Positions 1,160 to 29,049 of a stretch of 39,719 bases of DNA are shown here, in pieces (position 1 is the stretch's first letter; every line of letters starts with the position of its first letter). Source of the DNA: Ignavibacteriales bacterium (GTDB taxonomy: Bacteria > Bacteroidota > Ignavibacteria > Ignavibacteriales > Ignavibacteriaceae). The position numbers and the translations under genes are program-made. Below the pieces are notes generated by a model. It had not been told where the DNA came from and made no database searches. It was given only the letters and a program-made list of their open reading frames with translations. The stretch spans positions 34,772 to 74,490 of the forward strand of contig PLLW01000021.1 in NCBI GenBank assembly GCA_003141435.1. Direction: 5' to 3'.

Positions 1160-1615
1160 TTATTCTTTCCCGGTATGTCCGAAGCCGCCTGTCCCTCTTT
1201 TGCTTTCATTAAGTGAATTTCCTTCAACAAAATTAGCCCTGAATACTCTGGAGATAATCAATTGAGCGATCCTTTCACTTTTTTGTATAGTGAAGTCTTC
1301 TTTACCAAAGTTAATCAATAATATTTTTATTTCTCCACGATAATCGGAATCAATAGTTCCGGGAGAGTTTAATATACCGATTCCGTGTTTAGCTGCAAGT
1401 CCGCTTCTTGGTCGTACCTGAATCTCGTAACCATGAGGTATCTCGACTGATAAATTTGTCGGGACAATCGCAACTTCTCCAATCTTGACAATAAGGGGTT
1501 CCTGAACAGCAGCTCTTATATCCATTCCTGCACTTCCTTCAGTTGCATATTCAGGAAGAGGGATGTCATTATATTCTTTGCTTATTCTTTTAATTTTAAT
1601 ATTTATATTATCCAT
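1160..1615 (-). CDS. dut: dUTP diphosphatase
   Basis: Hydrolyses dUTP to dUMP and diphosphate, keeping uracil out of DNA and supplying dUMP for thymidylate synthesis. At 151 residues it has the usual length of the homotrimeric family. All five motifs are visible: AGMDIRA at 29-35, PRSGLA at 69-74, GTIDSDYRG at 86-94 with the catalytic Asp and Tyr, the QKSERIAQ segment at 111-118, and the C-terminal RGTGGFGHTG at 140-149, the glycine-rich flap that closes over the substrate. The start codon overlaps the stop of the upstream flippase gene by one base (TAATG), which implies translational coupling. Next in the same direction, after 95 bases, is dnaE, so two DNA-metabolism genes close this minus-strand block. 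Confidence 0.97.
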   Translation of the reverse strand: MDNINIKIKRISKEYNDIPLPEYATEGSAGMDIRAAVQEPLIVKIGEVAIVPTNLSVEIPHGYEIQVRPRSGLAAKHGIGILNSPGTIDSDYRGEIKILLINFGKEDFTIQKSERIAQLIISRVFRANFVEGNSLNESKRGTGGFGHTGKE

Positions 1616-3075
1616 TAATGAGCCAGTCCAATCTTTTTCTTAATAAATCCCAATTCCTTTTTATCAAAAACAAATAAAAGCAAAGAACATATAAAGCTTA
1701 CCAGAATCAATATTTTGTATGTAAACAATAAATGATGGGCAAACATAAGATAATAATAAACTGATCCGGAGATAAGAACAAAACTTAAGGTTTTAATCAC
1801 CTTCCCCTTTTCATAATTTATTTCATAGAATCGTTGAGTGATTATATAAACCATCACAGCCATAACAAGATAACTTGCAAGTGTTGCAAGAGCGGCTCCA
1901 ACTATACCCCAGACTGGGATGAGTAAAAAATTAACTCCAACATTTATTGCTGCGCCTATGCCAGTTATAATTGGAACATATGAACTTTTTTCTTCAATAA
2001 ACATTCCGGCTGATAGGACGTAGTACATTCCATTAAAAAGATAACCAAACAGAATTATCGGCACTATTATCAGTCCACTCCAAAATGCAGGACCAACTAT
2101 AGTTCTGCCAAGTATATGGAACTTGACAATATCATCAATAAACAATGAGAGGAATATAAGTATTAAGCTGCCAGCTATTGTAAAGTAAGTAAGTATTTTA
2201 GAAAATACCTGTTTAATATTTTTCTCTTGGGCATTCTGAAAAAAGAATGGCTGCCAGGCATACTGGAACATGCTGACAAACAGCATCATAAAAATTCCCA
2301 GTTTATAGTTTGCTGAATATATTCCGGAAGTATGCAGATCAGTCAGTTGAGTTAAAATAGGTCTGTCTATCCCTTGAATCATAATCGAACTTAGCCCAGC
2401 CGGAAGAAAAGGAAGTCCGAATTTGAGTAGTTTTTTCAGAATTGGAAGATCAATAATTATTTTAAATGACCTCAATATTGAGGGGGACAGCAGAATAAGC
2501 GTTAAAGCTGAAGATGCAAGGTTACTAATGAAGATAGCTTCAACTCCCCATCTAAGTTTAACAATAAGAATAAAATTAAGTGTAATATTTAATAGTATTC
2601 CTATGAATTTAAATAAAGCAAATTTTTTAGCTTTTCTTTCAATCCTTAATTTTACAAACGGGATAATAGTTAGCGAGTCAAGAAACAGGATGAGGGAAGT
2701 ATAAAATATTAAATAATAGTAGGCCGGAGGAATCTCTAGTAAACTGAATATTGGCTTTTTGAATATGATAACAAGCAGACAGATAAAAAAAGAAACTATC
2801 ATCACTGTAAGATAGGGAGTTGAAAAATTATTTTTATCTTCATTACTGCTTTTAACATTCACAGCATATTTCATGTATGCAGTATCCATTCCAAAGAGAA
2901 GGATAACATTCAGGATTGAAATGAAGACATAAACCTGACTTTGTATTCCATATTCGAATGGTCGGAATAAATTAGTATAGATTGGAACAAGAAGGAAATT
3001 AAGAAACCTGCCAACCATGGTGCTTATTCCATAAACGGCGGTATCCTTTGTGAGCTGTTTTATTTTATCGAGCAT
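1615..3075 (-). CDS. Polysaccharide flippase (MATE/MOP superfamily, Wzx-like)
   Basis: A 486-residue integral membrane protein with about 12-14 hydrophobic segments. The N-terminus (KDTAVYGISTMVGRFLNF, about residues 9-26) is typical of the polysaccharide-biosynthesis branch of the MOP exporter superfamily. These proteins flip polyprenyl-diphosphate-linked oligosaccharides, or lipid II, across the inner membrane. The gene overlaps nadC by 11 bases upstream and dut by one base downstream, so it sits in a mixed housekeeping operon, apart from the dedicated Wzx/Wzy/Wzz block. A second flippase gene lies at 14291-15724. Which glycan each one moves cannot be read from sequence; a MurJ-like role is not excluded but I see no MurJ-specific signature. 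Confidence 0.88.
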   Translation of the reverse strand: MLDKIKQLTKDTAVYGISTMVGRFLNFLLVPIYTNLFRPFEYGIQSQVYVFISILNVILLFGMDTAYMKYAVNVKSSNEDKNNFSTPYLTVMIVSFFICLLVIIFKKPIFSLLEIPPAYYYLIFYTSLILFLDSLTIIPFVKLRIERKAKKFALFKFIGILLNITLNFILIVKLRWGVEAIFISNLASSALTLILLSPSILRSFKIIIDLPILKKLLKFGLPFLPAGLSSIMIQGIDRPILTQLTDLHTSGIYSANYKLGIFMMLFVSMFQYAWQPFFFQNAQEKNIKQVFSKILTYFTIAGSLILIFLSLFIDDIVKFHILGRTIVGPAFWSGLIIVPIILFGYLFNGMYYVLSAGMFIEEKSSYVPIITGIGAAINVGVNFLLIPVWGIVGAALATLASYLVMAVMVYIITQRFYEINYEKGKVIKTLSFVLISGSVYYYLMFAHHLLFTYKILILVSFICSLLLFVFDKKELGFIKKKIGLAH

Positions 3076-4455: not shown

Positions 4456-5406
4456 TTATTCTACGAATTGTCCCATTTTACCAAATTTTTCGAGTCTGTT
4501 TTCGACCAGTTTTTCCGGTTTTAATCTGACCAAGTAGGATAATTCTTCAACGATGACTTTTTTTAGGAGAATTGCTGCTTCTTTATGGTTTGTGTGTGCG
4601 CCTCCGACAGGCTCAGGAACAACTCGGTCAATTAATTTTTGCTCAAGCAAGTCAGGCGCAGTAAGTTTTAAAGCTTCGGCTGCCTGTTCTTTAAATTCCC
4701 AGCTTCTCCATAAAATACTAGAACAAGATTCAGGACTTATTACAGAATACCAGCAATTTTCAAGCATCAGGATCCTGTTACCAACGCCAATTCCCAAAGC
4801 TCCACCACTGGCACCTTCTCCGATGATAATCACAAGAATCGGTACTCTGAGTTTGCTCATTTCAAACAAGTTGCGGGCTATTGCTTCTGCCTGACCTCTT
4901 TCTTCGGCTTCCAAACCCGGGAAAGCTCCAGGAGTATCTATCATTGTGATAACCGGTTTATTAAACTTCTCAGCCAATTTCATAAGTCGCAAGGCTTTCC
5001 GATATCCTTCAGGATTAGGCATACCGAAATTCCTGAAAACATTTGATTTTGTATCGCGTCCCTTCTGATGCCCAATAATCATTACATTAAAATTATCAAT
5101 CTTCGCAAAACCCCCGACTATGGCTTTGTCATCCTTAAAGTTCCTGTCGCCATGCAACTCGACAAAATTTTCGGTCATCAGGTAAACATAGTCCAGTGTA
5201 TAAGGTCTATCCGGATGACGCGCGAGTTGCACTCTCTGCCACCTCGTCAAATCATTAAATAGGTTTGCCTTCAATTTTTTAACCTTTTCCTCAATCCTAA
5301 CTATCTCCTTTTCAAGATCCAAACTTCCAGAAAACTTCCTCATCTCATCAATTTTTGCTTCAAGTTCAAAGATCGGTTTTTCAAAATCCAACACTGTCTT
5401 AGCCAT
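4456..5406 (-). CDS. accA: Acetyl-CoA carboxylase carboxyltransferase subunit alpha
   Basis: Transfers the carboxyl group from biotin to acetyl-CoA together with AccD, forming malonyl-CoA for fatty acid synthesis. The reading frame extends to 5427, but the family N-terminus [19 protein letters not shown] begins at the ATG at 5406, so that start is chosen (316 residues). Crotonase-fold motifs are intact: [60 protein letters not shown] and [12 protein letters not shown]. The start lies two bases after the stop of the GT2 fusion gene, so accA appears to be translated from the tail of a polysaccharide operon. AccD, AccB and AccC are not in the window. About 125 bases separate it from the next gene downstream. 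Confidence 0.97.
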
Positions 5407-5408
5407 AA

Positions 5409-7394
5409 TTATTTCCGGGTTCCCCACATTTTAATAAGTGTCTTTCCCAATATTTCAATATCCAGCCAGATATTCTGATTCTTAGCATAATAAATATTCA
5501 ATTTTTCAGAATCTTTTCCTTCGCTACCTTCAATATACCAAAGACCTGTTATTCCTTCCTTTCCTAAATATAATTCATTAAAATTTATATTTTCTCTGGG
5601 ACCGACAAAACTGAACTCACCAATGAATACTTTTGGAATTTTAAGAACAAATTTCTGAAACTCGTTCTGCTTTTTATTGATGTGGACGATTAAATATATA
5701 AAAGGATATATAAAAAACAAAGTCGAGAGTGAGAGAATGAAATCAAAGACACGTTTAATAAGCTTAATTATTGGACTTGAAATATTATAATTTAGCTCAA
5801 TTATAGGAGTATCATCAAGAATGGAAACTGATGTTTTGCCCATAAGAAAGTCCAGATTGTTCCCAATCAGCTTAAAATCTATGCTGTCATACTGGCTTTT
5901 GGATACAATTGTCATTATCTCATTGTAAGAAAGCTCTAATGATGATAATATTACTTCATTTATTTTGTTGTCCATTATCACCTTATTTATATTTTCAGTA
6001 CTGCCTAAAACTTCCAGTCCATCTATTTCCTCCCCCACTTCTTTATTTGTATTACTTATCAGACCGATCACATTATGAAGGTCAGTGTGTTTAAGTTTTA
6101 ATTTATTAGCAATCGCGGTTGTCTGTTTATTTATACCGACTACTAATGTCCTACGTTGCAGCCCTTCTTTATTATTGGAACCTAAATTGAAAAGGATTTT
6201 AGCAAAAATACGCCAGAATGTAAGAGAAAAGAAAAGAGTAAAGTAAGTTAAAACTATAACTCCCCTGCTATATGCAAAATCCTTAAAGAAAAAAGAGAGA
6301 GAAGTTACGAAGAAAAAACTTATAATTATTGCACCAAAATTTTTTAGGATAGTAAATCCATATCTTTTATAATTTCCAGTAAGACCGGTTATAATAATAT
6401 GAATGATACCGGGAAATAAATAAACAATTGGAAGACTGTAATGAGGAAACCCTACCCATTTACTTTTAAAAAATACATATGCTTTTTCTGAACCCATAAG
6501 TGTTAAATCATAAAACACAAAGTCCAAGATAATTGCCAGCAAAACAAGTTTTCGTTTACCAAGGAAAGCAAATAATTTTCTGAAGATAATTGCTGACTGC
6601 AGGATTACACCTACAAAGAAAGAACCCGATAAATGTTTTTTAACGAAAAGATGCATTGCGCTGTAAAATATTTTAGTTTCATCCAAACCGCTTCTTTTTG
6701 TGCTTTCGCCTTTATAATGAATTATCTGGGTTGAATGTACATAAAATACTTTATACCCTGATTTCTGAGTCCTGTAACAAAAATCAAGATCCTCGCCGTA
6801 CATGAAAAACTTCTCATCAAGACCCCCAATTTTTTCATATAAATCCTTCCTGAACATCATAAATGAGCCAGAAATAGCATCAACTTCATAGGTTTTGTCC
6901 GGATCAAGATAAGTAAGATTGTACCGGGCAAAAATCCTGCTTTCGGGGAATAAATTACTTAAACCGGTAACTTTGCAGAAAGAGGTCCATGGCCCAGGGA
7001 AACTTCTTCGGCAAGCAAGCTGAAGGGTTCCATCGGGATTTAGAATCTTACATCCGGCTAAACCTACTAGAGAATTTTCTTCAAAGAATCGAATCATTTT
7101 TTCAAAAGTATCTTCACTTACAAGAGTATCAGGATTTAGTAGAAGGATATATTTCCCTTTTGCCTTCTTCATCCCAATATTGTTAGCTTTGCTGAATCCC
7201 AGATTCTTGTTGTTTGCAATAAGATTAACTTCAGGAAATTTTTCTCTTATAAACTCAACACTCCCATCATTAGAAGCATTATCGACAATAATAATTTCAC
7301 GGTTTATTTTGATAGAGGATTTACTTATTGAATGAAGAAGGTTCTGAAGGAATTCTTTTACATTATAGTTAACAATAATTATAGAAATGTCCAA
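5409..7394 (-). CDS. GT2 glycosyltransferase fused to a degenerate polyprenyl glycosylphosphotransferase
   Basis: Residue numbers count from an upstream ATG at 7442. Residues 18-270 are a rhamnosyltransferase-like GT2 domain: [19 protein letters not shown], the donor-site region LLNPDTL near 102-108, and ISGSFMMF with [19 protein letters not shown] near 190-224. About 300-415 hold hydrophobic helices, 430-530 a CoA_binding_3-like Rossmann segment ([10 protein letters not shown]), and 548-677 a sugar-transferase-like tail with one membrane helix and FSFVGPREN at 610-618. The catalytic core expected between that helix and VGPR, including KFRSM and the Asp-Glu dyad seen in the neighbour at 8172-9575, is absent. 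I therefore read the second half as a catalytically dead phosphotransferase acting as a membrane scaffold. The TTG at 7392-7394 follows AGGTGA and avoids a 40-base overlap, so it is preferred over the ATG. Confidence 0.85.
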
Positions 7395-7402
7395 GACATC
7401 AC

Positions 7403-8122
7403 CTACAAGCTCCCGAATAAACTTTTTAATCTTAATTTCCAAACCATAGTAATGGCTTCGCGAACTATCTTTTTAGACATTTTTGATTTCCCCTTTACCC
7501 TGTCAAAAAATACGATGGGGATCTCACCGATACTAAAGCCTTTTTTCCAGGCTTTATAAGTCATTTCAATTTGAAATGCATAACCGTTTGATTTTATCTT
7601 ATTAAGGTTTATTGCCTGCAGAACTTCTTTCCGGAAACATTTAAATCCTCCGGTAGCATCTTTAATAGGAAGACCGGTAATGACTCTTGTGTACCAGTTA
7701 GCAAAATAACTTAAAAGCAGCCTGCCCATGGGCCAATTGACAACATTTACACCTGATATATACCTGCTACCTAACACAATATCATATTTTTTTATTGCTT
7801 TCAGGAAGTTTTTAATTTCTTTAGGATCGTGTGAATAATCGCCATCCATCTCAAAAATATAACCATAATTGTTTTCTAAGGCATATTTAAAACCATCAAT
7901 ATAGGCAGTCCCTAATCCCATCTTTTGAGGGCGTTTAATAAGCTTTAACCCCTGCATGGTGTTACTCAATTCTTCAACATAATGACCAGTACCATCAGGA
8001 GAATTATCATCGACTATTAGAATATCCACATTCTTATTTCTGCTAAAGACATCCGGAATTAATTTCTGAATGTTATCCAGTTCGTTATATGTCGGTATAA
8101 TTATGAGCGAGTGTTCGTTCAT
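7403..8122 (-). CDS. Polyprenol-phosphate mannose synthase-like glycosyltransferase (GT2)
   Basis: A 239-residue GT2 enzyme of the dolichol-phosphate mannose synthase (DPM1) type. The A fold starts IIIPTYNELDNI, followed by the family hallmark VDDNSPDGTG near residues 37-46. The metal-binding region is EMDGDYSHDP near 91-100, then LGSRYISG, and DATGGFKCF near 155-163. These enzymes move mannose or glucose from a nucleotide sugar to polyprenyl phosphate on the cytoplasmic face, giving donors for periplasmic glycosylation. No C-terminal membrane helices are seen, as in the short soluble bacterial forms. The stop codon overlaps the ribosome binding site of the downstream fused GT2 gene, so the two are probably coupled. 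The sugar and acceptor are unknown; a simple undecaprenyl-phosphate glycosyltransferase is the alternative. Confidence 0.88.
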   Translation of the reverse strand: MNEHSLIIIPTYNELDNIQKLIPDVFSRNKNVDILIVDDNSPDGTGHYVEELSNTMQGLKLIKRPQKMGLGTAYIDGFKYALENNYGYIFEMDGDYSHDPKEIKNFLKAIKKYDIVLGSRYISGVNVVNWPMGRLLLSYFANWYTRVITGLPIKDATGGFKCFRKEVLQAINLNKIKSNGYAFQIEMTYKAWKKGFSIGEIPIVFFDRVKGKSKMSKKIVREAITMVWKLRLKSLFGSL

Positions 8123-8171: not shown

Positions 8172-9575
8172 TTAATTATAATGTCCTTTTGCAAACAAAA
8201 CGACAAAAATTGTTCGGAATAATATTTTAAAATCCATTCTTAGGGACATATTTTCAATATAAAAAAGGTCATATCTGAGTTTTATCTTAACATCTTCGAT
8301 GGATTCATCATATTTATGTTTTACCTGAGCCCAGCCTGTAATTCCGGGTCTTACCTTTAATCTTCTTTTATAATAGGGTATTTCCTTTGAAAGCATTTCA
8401 ACAAAATACGGCCTTTCAGGGCGGGGACCAACCAGGCTCATTTCTCCTTTCAATACATTAATCATCTGGGGAATTTCGTCAACCCGCACTTTTCGAATAA
8501 TTTTGCCAATATGAGTAATCCGCGGATCATTTTTAGTACTCCAAACAGGACCTGAATGTTTTTCGGCATCTTGCTGCATCGACCGGAACTTAATCATTTT
8601 AAACAATTCGCCATCTATACCACATCTTGCCTGTTTAAAGAATACTGAGCCGGAACTATCAATTTTTATAGCAAGGGCTGTAATTATCAATGCCGGAGAT
8701 GTCAAAATCAAAATGAAGAGAGAAACGAAAACATCAATTATTCTTTTAAGTCCTTTTTCCCATTCAGGCATTAACTGAGGCATAATATCGATAAGAGGTA
8801 TACCGTAAATTTGTGCAGTCCTTGCCTGACCACTTAAAATCTCATAAAGATTAGGAACAATTTTGAGACCGACATTTTTAGGTTCGCATTCAGAGATAAC
8901 GTCAACCAGGAGGTTGCGATTGTCCTTCTCTAAAGCAATAATAACCTCTTTAGCGTTGTAAATGTCAATCAGAGAACTTAAATCTTTAATGGTACCCCGT
9001 ACTTCTATCCCTTTATATGATTTATTAAGATTAATCTTATCAACCGCAGCATAAGCGGCAGCATCAAGACCGAGGGCTCTGTGTTCAAGAATCTGATCAT
9101 GGACTTCATTCGCCGTGGGATTAAAACCTACAATAATAACATTTCGCCTTCCTATTCCTTTAATAATAAGACTGCGCTGGAAACTCCGAATAAGAATTCT
9201 TCCTCCTCCGACAAAAAAGAAGAAAAGTCCCCAATAAATAAAAATCAAAATTCTTGATTCCGAGTTAACATTATGAGTATAATCATCAAGAAGAATTAAA
9301 AAGAAAAGAACAAATATTCCGACAAAAGTAGATTTAAATAAAGTAGTGAGCTCATCGAACCTTGAGGAGGCAAACCATGTTCTATACATTCCGACAAAAG
9401 TAAAAACTAACAGCCAGTAAAAATAAAGAGCAATCATCGGCACAGAAAATTCAGGTAGGATGAGGATATCAAACCAGCCTGTTTTAATCCGAAGTATAAA
9501 GTAAATTATAAACGAGATATTTATAGTCAAAAAATCAGTTATCAGGATTATTATTTTTTCAGTACGGCGATTCAA
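8172..9575 (-). CDS. Exopolysaccharide polyprenyl glycosylphosphotransferase (initiating enzyme)
   Basis: Transfers a sugar 1-phosphate from a UDP-sugar to undecaprenyl phosphate, the priming step of repeat-unit assembly. At 467 residues it has the complete WbaP-like layout: four N-terminal membrane helices (about 8-130), a CoA_binding_3 Rossmann-like domain (about 143-270, NVIIVGFNPTANEV), a re-entrant membrane helix (about 278-305) and the catalytic domain. Active-site motifs are intact: FFKQARCG near 312-319, KFRSM at 329-333, VDEIPQ with the Asp366-Glu367 dyad, SLVGPRPERPYF at 380-391 and RPGITGWAQV at 409-418. It is the only complete phosphoglycosyl transferase in the window and probably primes the glycan made by the surrounding genes. 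Its start directly abuts the stop of the upstream membrane GT2. Confidence 0.95.
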   Translation of the reverse strand: MNRRTEKIIILITDFLTINISFIIYFILRIKTGWFDILILPEFSVPMIALYFYWLLVFTFVGMYRTWFASSRFDELTTLFKSTFVGIFVLFFLILLDDYTHNVNSESRILIFIYWGLFFFFVGGGRILIRSFQRSLIIKGIGRRNVIIVGFNPTANEVHDQILEHRALGLDAAAYAAVDKINLNKSYKGIEVRGTIKDLSSLIDIYNAKEVIIALEKDNRNLLVDVISECEPKNVGLKIVPNLYEILSGQARTAQIYGIPLIDIMPQLMPEWEKGLKRIIDVFVSLFILILTSPALIITALAIKIDSSGSVFFKQARCGIDGELFKMIKFRSMQQDAEKHSGPVWSTKNDPRITHIGKIIRKVRVDEIPQMINVLKGEMSLVGPRPERPYFVEMLSKEIPYYKRRLKVRPGITGWAQVKHKYDESIEDVKIKLRYDLFYIENMSLRMDFKILFRTIFVVLFAKGHYN

Positions 9576-10851: not shown

Positions 10852-11925
10852 ATGACTGTATATACCGACTGTTTATATTTCAAGGGAGACCTCCCTTGCG
10901 GACCCCATAAAGAATCAGGAATTCATTGTAAAGGATGCCCATTTTACAGAAAAACAGGCTTAAAAATACTTATTATTAAACTAGGAGCAATAGGTGATGT
11001 AATCAGGACTACACCATTATTAAGAAAACTGAAGGAGATCCATCCTGATGCAAAGGTTTTTTGGTTAACATATTCTCCAGGAATATTAAGTAGAAATTGG
11101 GCAAACAAAGTTTTAGAGGTTAATCAAGAAAACATTGAATTTATTAAACAGATCGAATTTGACTGGGTTATCAATTTAGATAAGGATCCTTTGGCAATAT
11201 CACTCATCCTCAGAGTGAAAGCGAAGAAGAAATCGGGATTTGTTATTGACGAATGGGGGAATGCCAGTCCAATTTCCTCTAAAGCTGAAGAACATAAATG
11301 GCTTACCGGAATTTTCGATGACCTTAATAAGCTAAACAAGAAGCATTATGTAGAAGAAGTATTTGATATGTGCGGATTTGATTTTAAAGATGAAGAATAT
11401 ATTATTGAAATACCGCAAAACAAATATGAATGGAATATAGAAAAGACCAAAAAAGTTATCGGGCTGAATACCGGATGTGGGGGGAGATGGACATCTCGTC
11501 TATGGCCAAGAGAATATTGGATTAAACTTGCTAAAGATTTAATAAAAGAGAATTACGAAGTAATTGTTTTAGGTGGTGAACAGGAACACGAAAAGAACAA
11601 ATCGATCTCCGAACAAAGTGGGGCTAAATACCCTGGTTATTTCCCTCTTAATACATTTATATCTTTAATCGATCAGTGTGATTTGGTGGTAACCTCAGTA
11701 ACAATGGCAATGCACCTAGCAATAGGTTTAAAGAAACAATTGATTCTTTTTAATAACATTTTTAATAAAAACGAATTTTACCTTTATGGGAGAGGGAAAA
11801 TACTAGAACCAGAATTTGAATGCGGTTGTTATTATACCCCTATTTGTGAAAATAATTGTATGCAGTATATATATCCAAAGAAAGTTCTTGCTGAAATAAA
11901 TAAACTTTTTGTCAAATCACTTTGA
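10852..11925 (+). CDS. GT9 (heptosyltransferase-like) glycosyltransferase with N-terminal cysteine cluster
   Basis: A 357-residue ADP-heptose:LPS heptosyltransferase-family protein. The GT9 core begins near residue 37 with KILIIKLGAIGDVIRTTPLL. The C-terminal half has GLNTGCGGRWTSRLWP, IVLGGEQEHE and the nucleotide-site region DLVVTSVTMAMHLAIGL. It differs from the usual family in a 35-residue N-terminal extension with Cys7, Cys16, Cys26 and Cys29 plus His19 and His25, and in a C-terminal Cys324, Cys326, Cys332, Cys336 cluster. C-terminal cysteines are common in GT9, whereas the N-terminal set looks like a small metal-binding or disulfide module. It is the only plus-strand gene in this 18-kb minus-strand stretch. 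Its 3' end converges on the GT4 gene with a nine-base gap and no terminator hairpin. Confidence 0.88.
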   Translation: MTVYTDCLYFKGDLPCGPHKESGIHCKGCPFYRKTGLKILIIKLGAIGDVIRTTPLLRKLKEIHPDAKVFWLTYSPGILSRNWANKVLEVNQENIEFIKQIEFDWVINLDKDPLAISLILRVKAKKKSGFVIDEWGNASPISSKAEEHKWLTGIFDDLNKLNKKHYVEEVFDMCGFDFKDEEYIIEIPQNKYEWNIEKTKKVIGLNTGCGGRWTSRLWPREYWIKLAKDLIKENYEVIVLGGEQEHEKNKSISEQSGAKYPGYFPLNTFISLIDQCDLVVTSVTMAMHLAIGLKKQLILFNNIFNKNEFYLYGRGKILEPEFECGCYYTPICENNCMQYIYPKKVLAEINKLFVKSL

Positions 11926-26589: not shown

Positions 26590-29049
26590 TCAGGGAGATG
26601 CAGCTTTTTTAATAGTCAAAATATTTTTATTCTTTCTTATTGAAGTTTCATCTGTTTTAATTTTAATATATCCGCCGTTAAGCCACATATTGCTCATATC
26701 CCTGTAGTGAGGGCTCATCACATTTCCGGATTGACCTGTTGTTAATACAAGATAAAACTCATCAGGGTTGGCAAAATCAAATATATAACGCATAGATGGA
26801 CCGACATTATTCTCGAAATCTGAATGACCAAACCTGGGATATTTTTTTATGCTTTCACTAAATGGATATTCTGTATTAAATATGGTGGTTCCGTCACCAC
26901 CAATTCTGAATGGACCGATATTGATATATTTATCGAGTAGTGAGGAAAACCCTGCGAATGAATGTTTAAATGTTGCTTTATGAAGGTCACCCCATTGCCA
27001 CATTTTAACATCTTTTCCATATTTATCTTCAAGTTCAGTTAAGGCATCGACCAGGCTTTTTCTTATTATTTCATTCCGCGTCTCAATTTGAGGGGTTTTA
27101 ACATCGTCCCACCAGGTGTTAGTAGAATCCTCAAGAACCTGCATAACGCTGCGGTAGGGAACATTTGGCATAAATACAAATTCATTAAAAAGATCATGCC
27201 CCATTTCATCATAATAAATATTCTTCAATAGATATTTAAAGAACACAGCATATATGGAAGGAACCTGGCTGTCTTCATTAAAATCGTAATTCCAATCTCC
27301 CAAAAGCTCGAGAGCAAGCTTAAGATTCTGATCAGTAATCTTTTTATCTTGGAAGGCATTCAGAATGTAAGCAGTAATCTTTTGCGCATAAGGAGAAACC
27401 TGGTCAAGTTGGTATTGTTCATAATCAGCGACAGAATGTTTTTCTTTAGAAGTAAGAAGCCGGGTGATTCTCTCAATTCTTGATGAGGGTTCCCATAAAT
27501 TAGAAATATGATATTTAAACTCTTTAACTGTTTTGTTATTAGCGGAGGCTATATAATGCTGAGGAGGATTGAATAAAGAGGGCAATTCAGACTGGGGGAC
27601 AAAACCTTTCCAGTCATATTTATCAGTAGTCCCGTCATAAACAAAAGTAGGAGAGTTATATTCTCTAATAGGCAACTTAGCGCCAAAGAGATATCCAATA
27701 TTGCCGGTCTTATCTGAGTAAACGAAATTTTGTCCCGGAACATTAAACATCTGTACTGCCGACTTGAATTCGTTCCAATTCTTTGCCTTATTTATTTTAT
27801 AGAATGCAAAGAGTTCATCGCTGAAATCATTCCCTGTCCATCTCATGCTTATGGGGGGAGAATTAAATCCTTTATCTTTATAAAGAATAGAATAAGGATG
27901 AATATCAGAAATAATAGGACCCCGGTGGGTAAGCTTTATTTCGAAATCAACATCCTGCTTATTTTTTACTTTAATTTTTTCTTTATAAGAGATTAAGTTT
28001 TTCCATTCCCCATTGTAAAGATATTTCTTTTGGGTAGAATCTAATTTTTCGACATAAAAATCGGCATCATCAGCCATAATATTGGTAAGTGCCCAAGAGA
28101 TATTATCATTTTTACCTATAACAATTCCGGGAACACCGGGTAAAGTGACCCCAGCACATGTTTCTTTACCACTTTTAATTACCGCAGCATACCATCTTCC
28201 AGGGGCACTATATTCAAGATGGGGATCATTCGCTATAATTGGTTTGCCGCTTTGTGATTTGGTACCATCCACTACCCAGTTATTGGACCCGATATGAGTA
28301 CCTGTCAATCCAATATACTCCCGGAAATCTCTATCTGTTTCTACAAGTCCCTGATCTATTGAGGATAACGTATTTAATTCAGAGGGTATTATATATGGGG
28401 CATTCTCCTGATAATTAGGAAGGATTTTTTTTACTTTATCTTCACCCAATTTCAGAACGAGATCTGAGAATGAAAAGTCAACCCACCAGCTTATATTAAG
28501 CTGCCAAGCCATCATTCTTATAACCAGAAGACTATGTTCAGGTTTCCACTCATAAGGATCATATCCGAGCACATCAAATTCAACCGGATAGTGCCCCTTG
28601 GCTTTTCTTATATAAAGGTTTACACCATTGGAATAGGCTTTAAGCAGATTGAGACTCACAGGGTTTAGTTTCTCAAGATTTTCCAAAGAATTTCTTTTCA
28701 AGCCAACTGTTAAAAACATTTTATCAAACGGAATGGCTTCTTGTCCAAGGATTTCACTTAGTCTTCCTTCACCAGCCCGTCTAGCAATGTCCATTACAAA
28801 TAATCTCTCCTGTGCATGAAGATAGCCCAATGCAAAAGCAGCATCTTCATCATTCTGTGCAATAATATATGGAACCGCAAGCGAGTCGCGATAAATCTCG
28901 ATATTATTAGAAATGTTTACGACATTTAAAACCCCCCGATATTGTGGAAGAGAGGCAGACAACATTTTATAAAATATGATCCCTCCTACAAAAAGAACAA
29001 GGACAAATGTTATAATTAGACTAATTACTATTTTTGACCAGCGAGGCAT
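26590..29049 (-). CDS. Penicillin acylase-family N-terminal nucleophile hydrolase
   Basis: An 819-residue Ntn-hydrolase precursor. An N-terminal membrane helix (about 6-28) serves as signal anchor. The alpha-chain region has PYIIAQNDEDAAFALGYLHA near 60-79 and RRAGEGRLSEILG near 90-102. The self-cleavage site is THIGSNNWVV, so Ser255 becomes the free N-terminal nucleophile of the beta chain. After it come SGKPIIANDPHLEY near 267-280, GVPGIVIGKNDNISWALTN and other family blocks. The family deacylates penicillins, cephalosporins or acyl-homoserine lactones in the periplasm; the true substrate cannot be told. It appears to be a single-gene transcript; 127 bases separate its end from metF. Confidence 0.95.
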   Translation of the reverse strand: MPRWSKIVISLIITFVLVLFVGGIIFYKMLSASLPQYRGVLNVVNISNNIEIYRDSLAVPYIIAQNDEDAAFALGYLHAQERLFVMDIARRAGEGRLSEILGQEAIPFDKMFLTVGLKRNSLENLEKLNPVSLNLLKAYSNGVNLYIRKAKGHYPVEFDVLGYDPYEWKPEHSLLVIRMMAWQLNISWWVDFSFSDLVLKLGEDKVKKILPNYQENAPYIIPSELNTLSSIDQGLVETDRDFREYIGLTGTHIGSNNWVVDGTKSQSGKPIIANDPHLEYSAPGRWYAAVIKSGKETCAGVTLPGVPGIVIGKNDNISWALTNIMADDADFYVEKLDSTQKKYLYNGEWKNLISYKEKIKVKNKQDVDFEIKLTHRGPIISDIHPYSILYKDKGFNSPPISMRWTGNDFSDELFAFYKINKAKNWNEFKSAVQMFNVPGQNFVYSDKTGNIGYLFGAKLPIREYNSPTFVYDGTTDKYDWKGFVPQSELPSLFNPPQHYIASANNKTVKEFKYHISNLWEPSSRIERITRLLTSKEKHSVADYEQYQLDQVSPYAQKITAYILNAFQDKKITDQNLKLALELLGDWNYDFNEDSQVPSIYAVFFKYLLKNIYYDEMGHDLFNEFVFMPNVPYRSVMQVLEDSTNTWWDDVKTPQIETRNEIIRKSLVDALTELEDKYGKDVKMWQWGDLHKATFKHSFAGFSSLLDKYINIGPFRIGGDGTTIFNTEYPFSESIKKYPRFGHSDFENNVGPSMRYIFDFANPDEFYLVLTTGQSGNVMSPHYRDMSNMWLNGGYIKIKTDETSIRKNKNILTIKKAASP

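Follow-up and report, generated by a model that had tools for sequence, protein, structure and literature searches.

Introduction

In large phosphoglycosyl transferases (Lg-PGTs), the main contact of the homodimer is a beta-hairpin that lies between the DUF and the catalytic domain and is swapped between the subunits, and WbaP is a homodimer with such a domain-swapped hairpin (PMC10942596). The roles of the accessory domains of Lg-PGTs were introduced as unclear in the same 2024 study, in which a class of bifunctional monoPGTs (Bi-PGTs) is named after O'Toole et al. 2021 (PMC10942596). Catalysis by monoPGTs is defined by an Asp-Glu dyad (PMC10519829). In PglC, a salt bridge between Lys7 and Asp169 pins the re-entrant helix and Pro24 breaks this helix and is implicated in polyprenol binding (PMC6133551), while Arg88 and Arg145 are the arginines that bind the phosphate of Und-P (PMC10519829).

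Fusions of a glycosyltransferase (GT) with a PGT are already known as such; the one described here carries a pseudo-PGT that is kept phylum-wide. In the open-access literature searched, no description of a GT joined to a PGT without its catalytic function was found.

Results

Layout of the fusion gene

The window, i.e. the whole stretch of 39,719 nucleotides that was analysed, comes from an Ignavibacteriales bacterium. One of its genes encodes an apparently active GT2 transferase joined to what appears from its sequence to be a pseudo-enzyme derived from an Lg-PGT. The gene, its parts and the intact PGT nearby are as follows.

5409..7394, minus strand: GT2-pseudoPGT fusion gene, 661 aa from a TTG at 7394
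6678..7391, minus strand: GT2 domain of the fusion, NPD and GED motifs apparently intact
6153..6545, minus strand: transmembrane bundle of the pseudo-PGT (AF2 helices)
5853..6152, minus strand: CoA_binding_3 / PF13727 domain ('DUF') of the fusion
5799..5852, minus strand: beta-hairpin region of the fusion, collinear with 'YEILSGQARTAQIYGIPLIDI' of the neighbour PGT
5676..5774, minus strand: re-entrant membrane (anchor) helix of the fusion, with K563-R564, D567 and P580
5607..5675, minus strand: site of the lost catalytic core in the fusion, about 23 residues against about 75 in the neighbour
5412..5606, minus strand: C-terminal remnant of the fusion, VGPR...GITG...YYAKNQ..LD.EI
8172..9575, minus strand: intact large PGT (EPS_sugtrans, TIGR03025), a conserved neighbour

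The mechanical ORF of the fusion runs from 7442 to 5409 (677 aa) and its numbering is used for all fusion residues. The start at 7394, already given in an earlier note on this DNA, is a good one because AGGTGAT lies just 5' of the TTG and because its position matches the N-terminus of the homologues. Pfam searches returned Glycos_transf_2 (E=3.5e-27), CoA_binding_3 (E=2.9e-13) and Bac_transf (E=1.4e-11). The last match covers only positions 96-177 of the 179 of the profile, compared to 1-178 in the intact neighbour.

The GT2 half has the hallmarks of its class, a PF00535 domain with the nucleotide/metal and catalytic-base motifs. Residues D54, N55, N103-P104-D105 and E217-D218 are present in 47/47 rows of a phylum-wide alignment, where the motifs N103-P104-D105 and G216-E217-D218 are invariant or nearly so. 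When the model of the whole fusion was searched with VIA-align, only rows dominated by the GT2 were obtained, with Z scores of 22-25 to the WrtF fucosyltransferase, RmlT and a Leptospira GT; a phmmer search gave RmlT with E=6e-11. Resemblance to the WbbL-type rhamnosyltransferase model TIGR01556 is weak (61 bits for a cut-off of 200.55). GT2-only paralogues, with about 32-39% identity to the GT2 half, are found upstream in many fusion loci (for example L038:11-1030, L057:3571-4392 and L060:1158-2003).

The catalytic core of the PGT half has been lost

The earlier note described the second half as built on the plan of a polyprenyl glycosylphosphotransferase, and all the elements of this plan were recovered here: the bundle, PF13727, the anchor helix, VGPR and the C-terminal helices. 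In a profile-profile comparison (hhalign), this half is collinear with residues 9-463 of the neighbour PGT family (E=2e-38) and the gap in the alignment is the active-site segment of the PGT. The segment of the neighbour that is absent from the fusion comprises VFFKQ, KFRSM, an Arg and the Asp-Glu segment. Of the 27 positions conserved at >=95% in the PGT core (residues 309-379), 25 are deleted or replaced and two are kept (P603 and G608), both outside the active site. The positions lost include K329/F330/R331/M333 of KFR.M, the invariant D366/E367 of DEIPQ and R361, the counterpart of PglC Arg88, where L600 stands in the fusion; the WAQV region of the PGT is not kept either. Another stretch of about 12 residues has been deleted between VGPR and GITG (the VGPRP-to-PGITG segment). 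The absence of KFRSM and of the Asp-Glu dyad, pointed out in the earlier note, is thus documented by aligned position, and so is the shortening between the anchor helix and VGPR, where about 23 residues were counted instead of the 15 or so first estimated.

To delimit this loss, 118 homologous proteins from Ignavibacteria, Rhodothermales, Balneola-like organisms, Bacteroidia and Calditrichota were scanned for K[FL]R[ST]M and [DE]E[LIM]PQ; neither motif was found in any of the 118, anywhere in the protein (the names Balneola-like and Flavobacterium-like are deduced from kinship). No homologue retaining the core was found among 39 phylum-wide examples, chosen mainly as one per family with the largest ORFs included, nor in L188-L193, and members from most families with full-length matches all lack it. 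Outside Bacteroidota, the sampling reached Calditrichota (L106). The search for gap-sharing homologues proposed in the earlier note gave a uniform answer: homologues with a retained core, which the note had named as a refutation, did not turn up in this sample, and the clean loss of a core within an open frame and between conserved flanks that it had described extends across the phylum. Two trivial explanations were discarded: an isolated deletion, frameshift, assembly error or chance event, because 118/118 homologues share the same loss, and an alternative core elsewhere in the ORF, as no KFRSM- or DExPQ-like motif occurs in the 118 proteins. The complete Bac_transf domain, KFRSM and the rest of the core that characterise a large monotopic PGT are wanting in the fusion, and its PGT half is predicted to be catalytically dead because the Asp-Glu dyad is lost.

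The remnant is conserved

Within a set of 74 homologues, about 93-100% keep D307, Y358, R393 and R411 in the transmembrane bundle, G436 in the DUF, K563, D567 and P580 in the anchor helix, and S611, V613, G614, G630, G633, Y652, N655, D661 and I664 in the C-terminal part; in the hairpin, G535 is kept in 100% and P546 in 93% of the same set. PF13727 was found in 73/74 fusion members. In the 47 phylum-wide rows, S392-R393 and R411 are invariant, and R393 and R411 are conserved in true Lg-PGTs too. K563-R564, P580 and D661 align with Lys7-Arg8, Pro24 and Asp169 of PglC, and the equivalents of K7, R8, P24 and D169 are kept in 36, 46, 45 and 46 of the 47 rows, respectively, position 563 being K or R in 44/47. 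Individual members have lost features that are otherwise kept; L168, for example, has no helix-break proline.

In AF2 models, the fusion (mean pLDDT 84) shows a GT-A domain followed by a helical bundle, a Rossmann-like DUF, the hairpin, a broken helix and short C-terminal elements, and the order of secondary structures in its PGT half is that of the intact PGT model (pLDDT 77). The hairpin is of low confidence in the fusion model and was assigned as WbaP-type by its position between the DUF and the catalytic domain. Foldseek matched the fusion model to WbaP of S. enterica (8t53, E=1.8e-11). In close pairs, dN/dS is about 0.04-0.2 for the PGT remnant versus about 0.03-0.08 for the GT2, as a simple NG86 estimate that is noisy for the short anchor segment. 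By this measure the PGT remnant is under purifying selection. It has the two attributes of a pseudoenzyme, conservation under selection and absence of the catalytic residues of its family.

Distribution and graded erosion of the PGT part

The fusion gene is present in 155/164 genomes of the order (threshold E<=1e-60) and in 108/109 of the good ones, nearly always in single copy. Phylum-wide, a profile match was obtained in 295/389 good genomes, part of these being GT2-only matches, and 80 loci were collected from GTDB genomes including Ignavibacteria, Calditrichota, Rhodothermaceae, Bacteroidales and Chitinophagaceae.

These members can be ordered by what is left of the PGT part. Stage 1, made of Balneola-like fusions (L167, L168, L177, L179, L181, L185) and of that from Calditrichota (L106), has extra residues past the anchor helix, with a VFFK-like stub in some; these longer-insert fusions are apparently an intermediate of core loss. 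The stub is absent in stage 2, which includes Ignavibacteria and relatives, and the C-terminus is degraded in stage 3, the Bacteroidales/Chitinophagales types. In stage 4, Flavobacterium-like proteins of 388-428 aa (L194-L198) consist only of GT2 and a compact DUF, without transmembrane bundle and anchor helix, and most of them carry the hairpin motif '[FIV]IG[SPK].S'. Finally, L199-L205 have no PGT part beyond GT2, the orthology of the weakest being uncertain. In a tree of the PGT part, all PGTs fall into a single clade (support 1.0) that contains no fusion, and the fusions nearest to it are the least eroded, stub-bearing ones. This topology fits a single origin and a single loss, and the simplest account of the distribution is one early loss of the active site in the Bacteroidota/FCB lineage, shared by the whole family.

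Graded erosion, and the families that keep nothing beyond GT2, could be taken as a sign of evolutionary baggage: the second activity of a bifunctional GT-PGT would have disappeared, and what is left would be tolerated only because folding requires it. The low dN/dS and near-invariant residues of the remnant, together with retention of the fusion throughout most of the order, make this very improbable. The series ends in GT2 plus DUF and therefore argues that the DUF and hairpin, rather than membrane anchoring, are the most durable contribution of the PGT. A membrane-only version of the platform proposed in the earlier note is not the most conserved part of the design, since the Flavobacterium-like members dropped the membrane parts.

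Presence of the DUF at all stages of erosion is also what would be expected of a ligand module, in which the DUF senses a uridine nucleotide and/or the re-entrant helix holds polyprenol, so that the GT2 is regulated or fed without docking. An effect of UMP has been reported for WbaP, whose DUF may sense UMP (PMC10942596), and the helix-break proline, linked to polyprenol in PglC (PMC6133551), is among the residues best kept in the phylum-wide rows. Against this, the Und-P arginines Arg88 and Arg145 of PglC have no evident counterpart in the fusion, given the L600 replacement and the loss of WAQV, and the membrane helix is gone in stage 4; we consider such a module quite unlikely.

The fusion lies in a conserved gene block

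In the window, genes lie on one strand in the order GT2tm-PGT-DPM1-like-fusion-accA-thioesterase-nadC-flippase-dut. Those used as markers, besides the PGT and the fusion, are:

7403..8122, minus strand: DPM1-like GT2 (polyprenol-phosphate-hexose synthase-like, a name given by resemblance), between PGT and fusion
4456..5427, minus strand: accA, the neighbour most widely conserved beside the fusion
1615..3075, minus strand: Wzx-type flippase, conserved downstream

Upstream are a GT4, a GT9, a second flippase, a possible polymerase without Pfam match and a weak Wzz match. Because of these GTs, flippases, possible polymerase and Wzz match, the fusion locus is, as judged by gene content, Wzx/Wzy-like. 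The GT9 (heptosyltransferase-like) gene at 10852-11925, on the opposite strand, encodes a cysteine-rich N-terminus (CGPHKESGIHCKGCPFY) and has close homologues upstream in L048, L059 and L085. A penicillin amidase family protein (26590-29049, E=5e-218) is unrelated to the fusion.

Neighbours were counted up to 6 kb from the fusion, the PGT only if on its strand, and at testable loci only. In 51 near relatives, a PGT was found in 49 (46 by a strict motif test), the DPM1-like gene in 46, accA in 50 and the flippase in 41. In 27 distant loci, the corresponding numbers are 14 (10 by the motif test), 13, 24 and 5, so that 13/27 have no PGT within 6 kb. A PGT was nevertheless present somewhere in the genome in 20/20 genomes searched, most of them without a PGT beside the fusion. 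In the Balneola-like group (L167-L185) the order is altered to fusion-PGT-DPM1-accA, which indicates that linkage to the PGT outlasts rearrangement, and in two Flavobacterium-like members the fusion homologue has a PGT gene at a distance of about 4-5 kb. With few exceptions, near relatives have the DPM1-like gene (7403-8122) between the PGT and the fusion. accA (4456-5427), although a gene of fatty-acid synthesis, stays beside the fusion more consistently than any other neighbour across the phylum, and the flippase followed by dut (1160-3075) is conserved downstream.

Discussion

A crippled fusion that is kept phylum-wide, usually beside a working starter enzyme, suggests a docking part rather than a catalyst. 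The reading that we prefer, with a probability of about 0.47, is that the pseudo-PGT scaffold is a docking module for the true PGT (8172-9575), from which Und-PP-sugar would be handed to the GT2. The PF13727 domain and the swapped-hairpin element would associate with the DUF of the 8172-9575 enzyme, the fusion taking the place of its homodimer partner, while the re-entrant helix and the transmembrane bundle would hold the GT2 at the cytosolic face of the membrane. Und-PP-sugar would then pass directly from the PGT to the GT2 for addition of the second sugar, and the resulting lipid-linked glycan would move on to the flippase. Retention of the dimer module favours docking on a true PGT. This is close to the earlier proposal of a platform that passes the primed lipid from the 8172-9575 enzyme: tight synteny with the PGT and the retained hairpin speak for it indirectly, and the distant loci without a nearby PGT, like the loss of the membrane parts in Flavobacterium-like members, speak against it.

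A homodimer of the fusion would be an equally plausible use of the hairpin. The pseudo-PGT would in that case dimerise the GT2 with itself at the membrane, and the neighbouring PGT would be a pathway partner that is left untouched. Such an arrangement has a precedent in the WbaP homodimer, which uses the same hairpin (PMC10942596), and would account for the fusion loci where no PGT is near. It does not readily explain why the fusion is so strongly linked to an intact PGT in the majority of near relatives, and anchoring is not invariant, since Flavobacterium-like members kept the DUF and hairpin without bundle and anchor helix. We regard it as somewhat unlikely.

The docking reading can be extended to a docking subunit that replaces half of an Lg-PGT homodimer by swapping of the DUF hairpin, giving a complex of two enzymes by which the first disaccharide is assembled on undecaprenyl phosphate. 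The PGT/DPM1-like/fusion/flippase block would then be an ancestral pathway of glycan initiation, near-universal in Ignavibacteria and relatives; in this full form the proposal is unlikely. The block might be linked to the core-glycan machinery of Bacteroidota protein O-glycosylation, whose core flippase was reported as unknown (PMC12871550), and a tie of the flippase-dut pair to that flippase is possible. The link is kept as a lead only, since the sole match in some families of Bacteroidia (e.g. f27) is a different GT2.

These observations bear on how the initiating enzyme hands lipid-linked sugars to the transferase that acts next, and on the role of the conserved PF13727 domain in Lg-PGTs. 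The fusion family is a natural phylum-wide experiment in which the core was removed and the accessory domains were kept, in some lineages down to DUF and hairpin, and the pattern of erosion suggests that DUF and hairpin form a module that has its own function.

Comparison with known systems

Three kinds of known enzymes resemble the fusion. WbbL/RmlT-like GT2 transferases share with it a GT-A fold with NPD and GED motifs, but identity is only about 17-24% and scores are under every NCBIfam cut-off, so no donor or acceptor is assigned to the GT2; none of the matched GT2 structures is reported with a pseudo-PGT, unlike the fusion. Large monotopic PGTs of the WbaP/WcaJ/EPS_sugtrans type share the helix bundle, the PF13727 DUF, the dimer hairpin, the re-entrant helix with its KR...P motif, VGP and the C-terminal Y..N....LD..I, whereas the fusion lacks KFRSM, the Asp-Glu dyad, the remaining catalytic segment and the Und-P-binding arginines and has an N-terminal GT2. 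Bi-PGTs have in common with the fusion a PGT unit joined to a second enzyme domain. By definition, the monoPGT core to which the functional domain of a Bi-PGT is attached is catalytic; the gene described here has the attached domain but no such core, and only its GT2 partner is a plausible catalyst.
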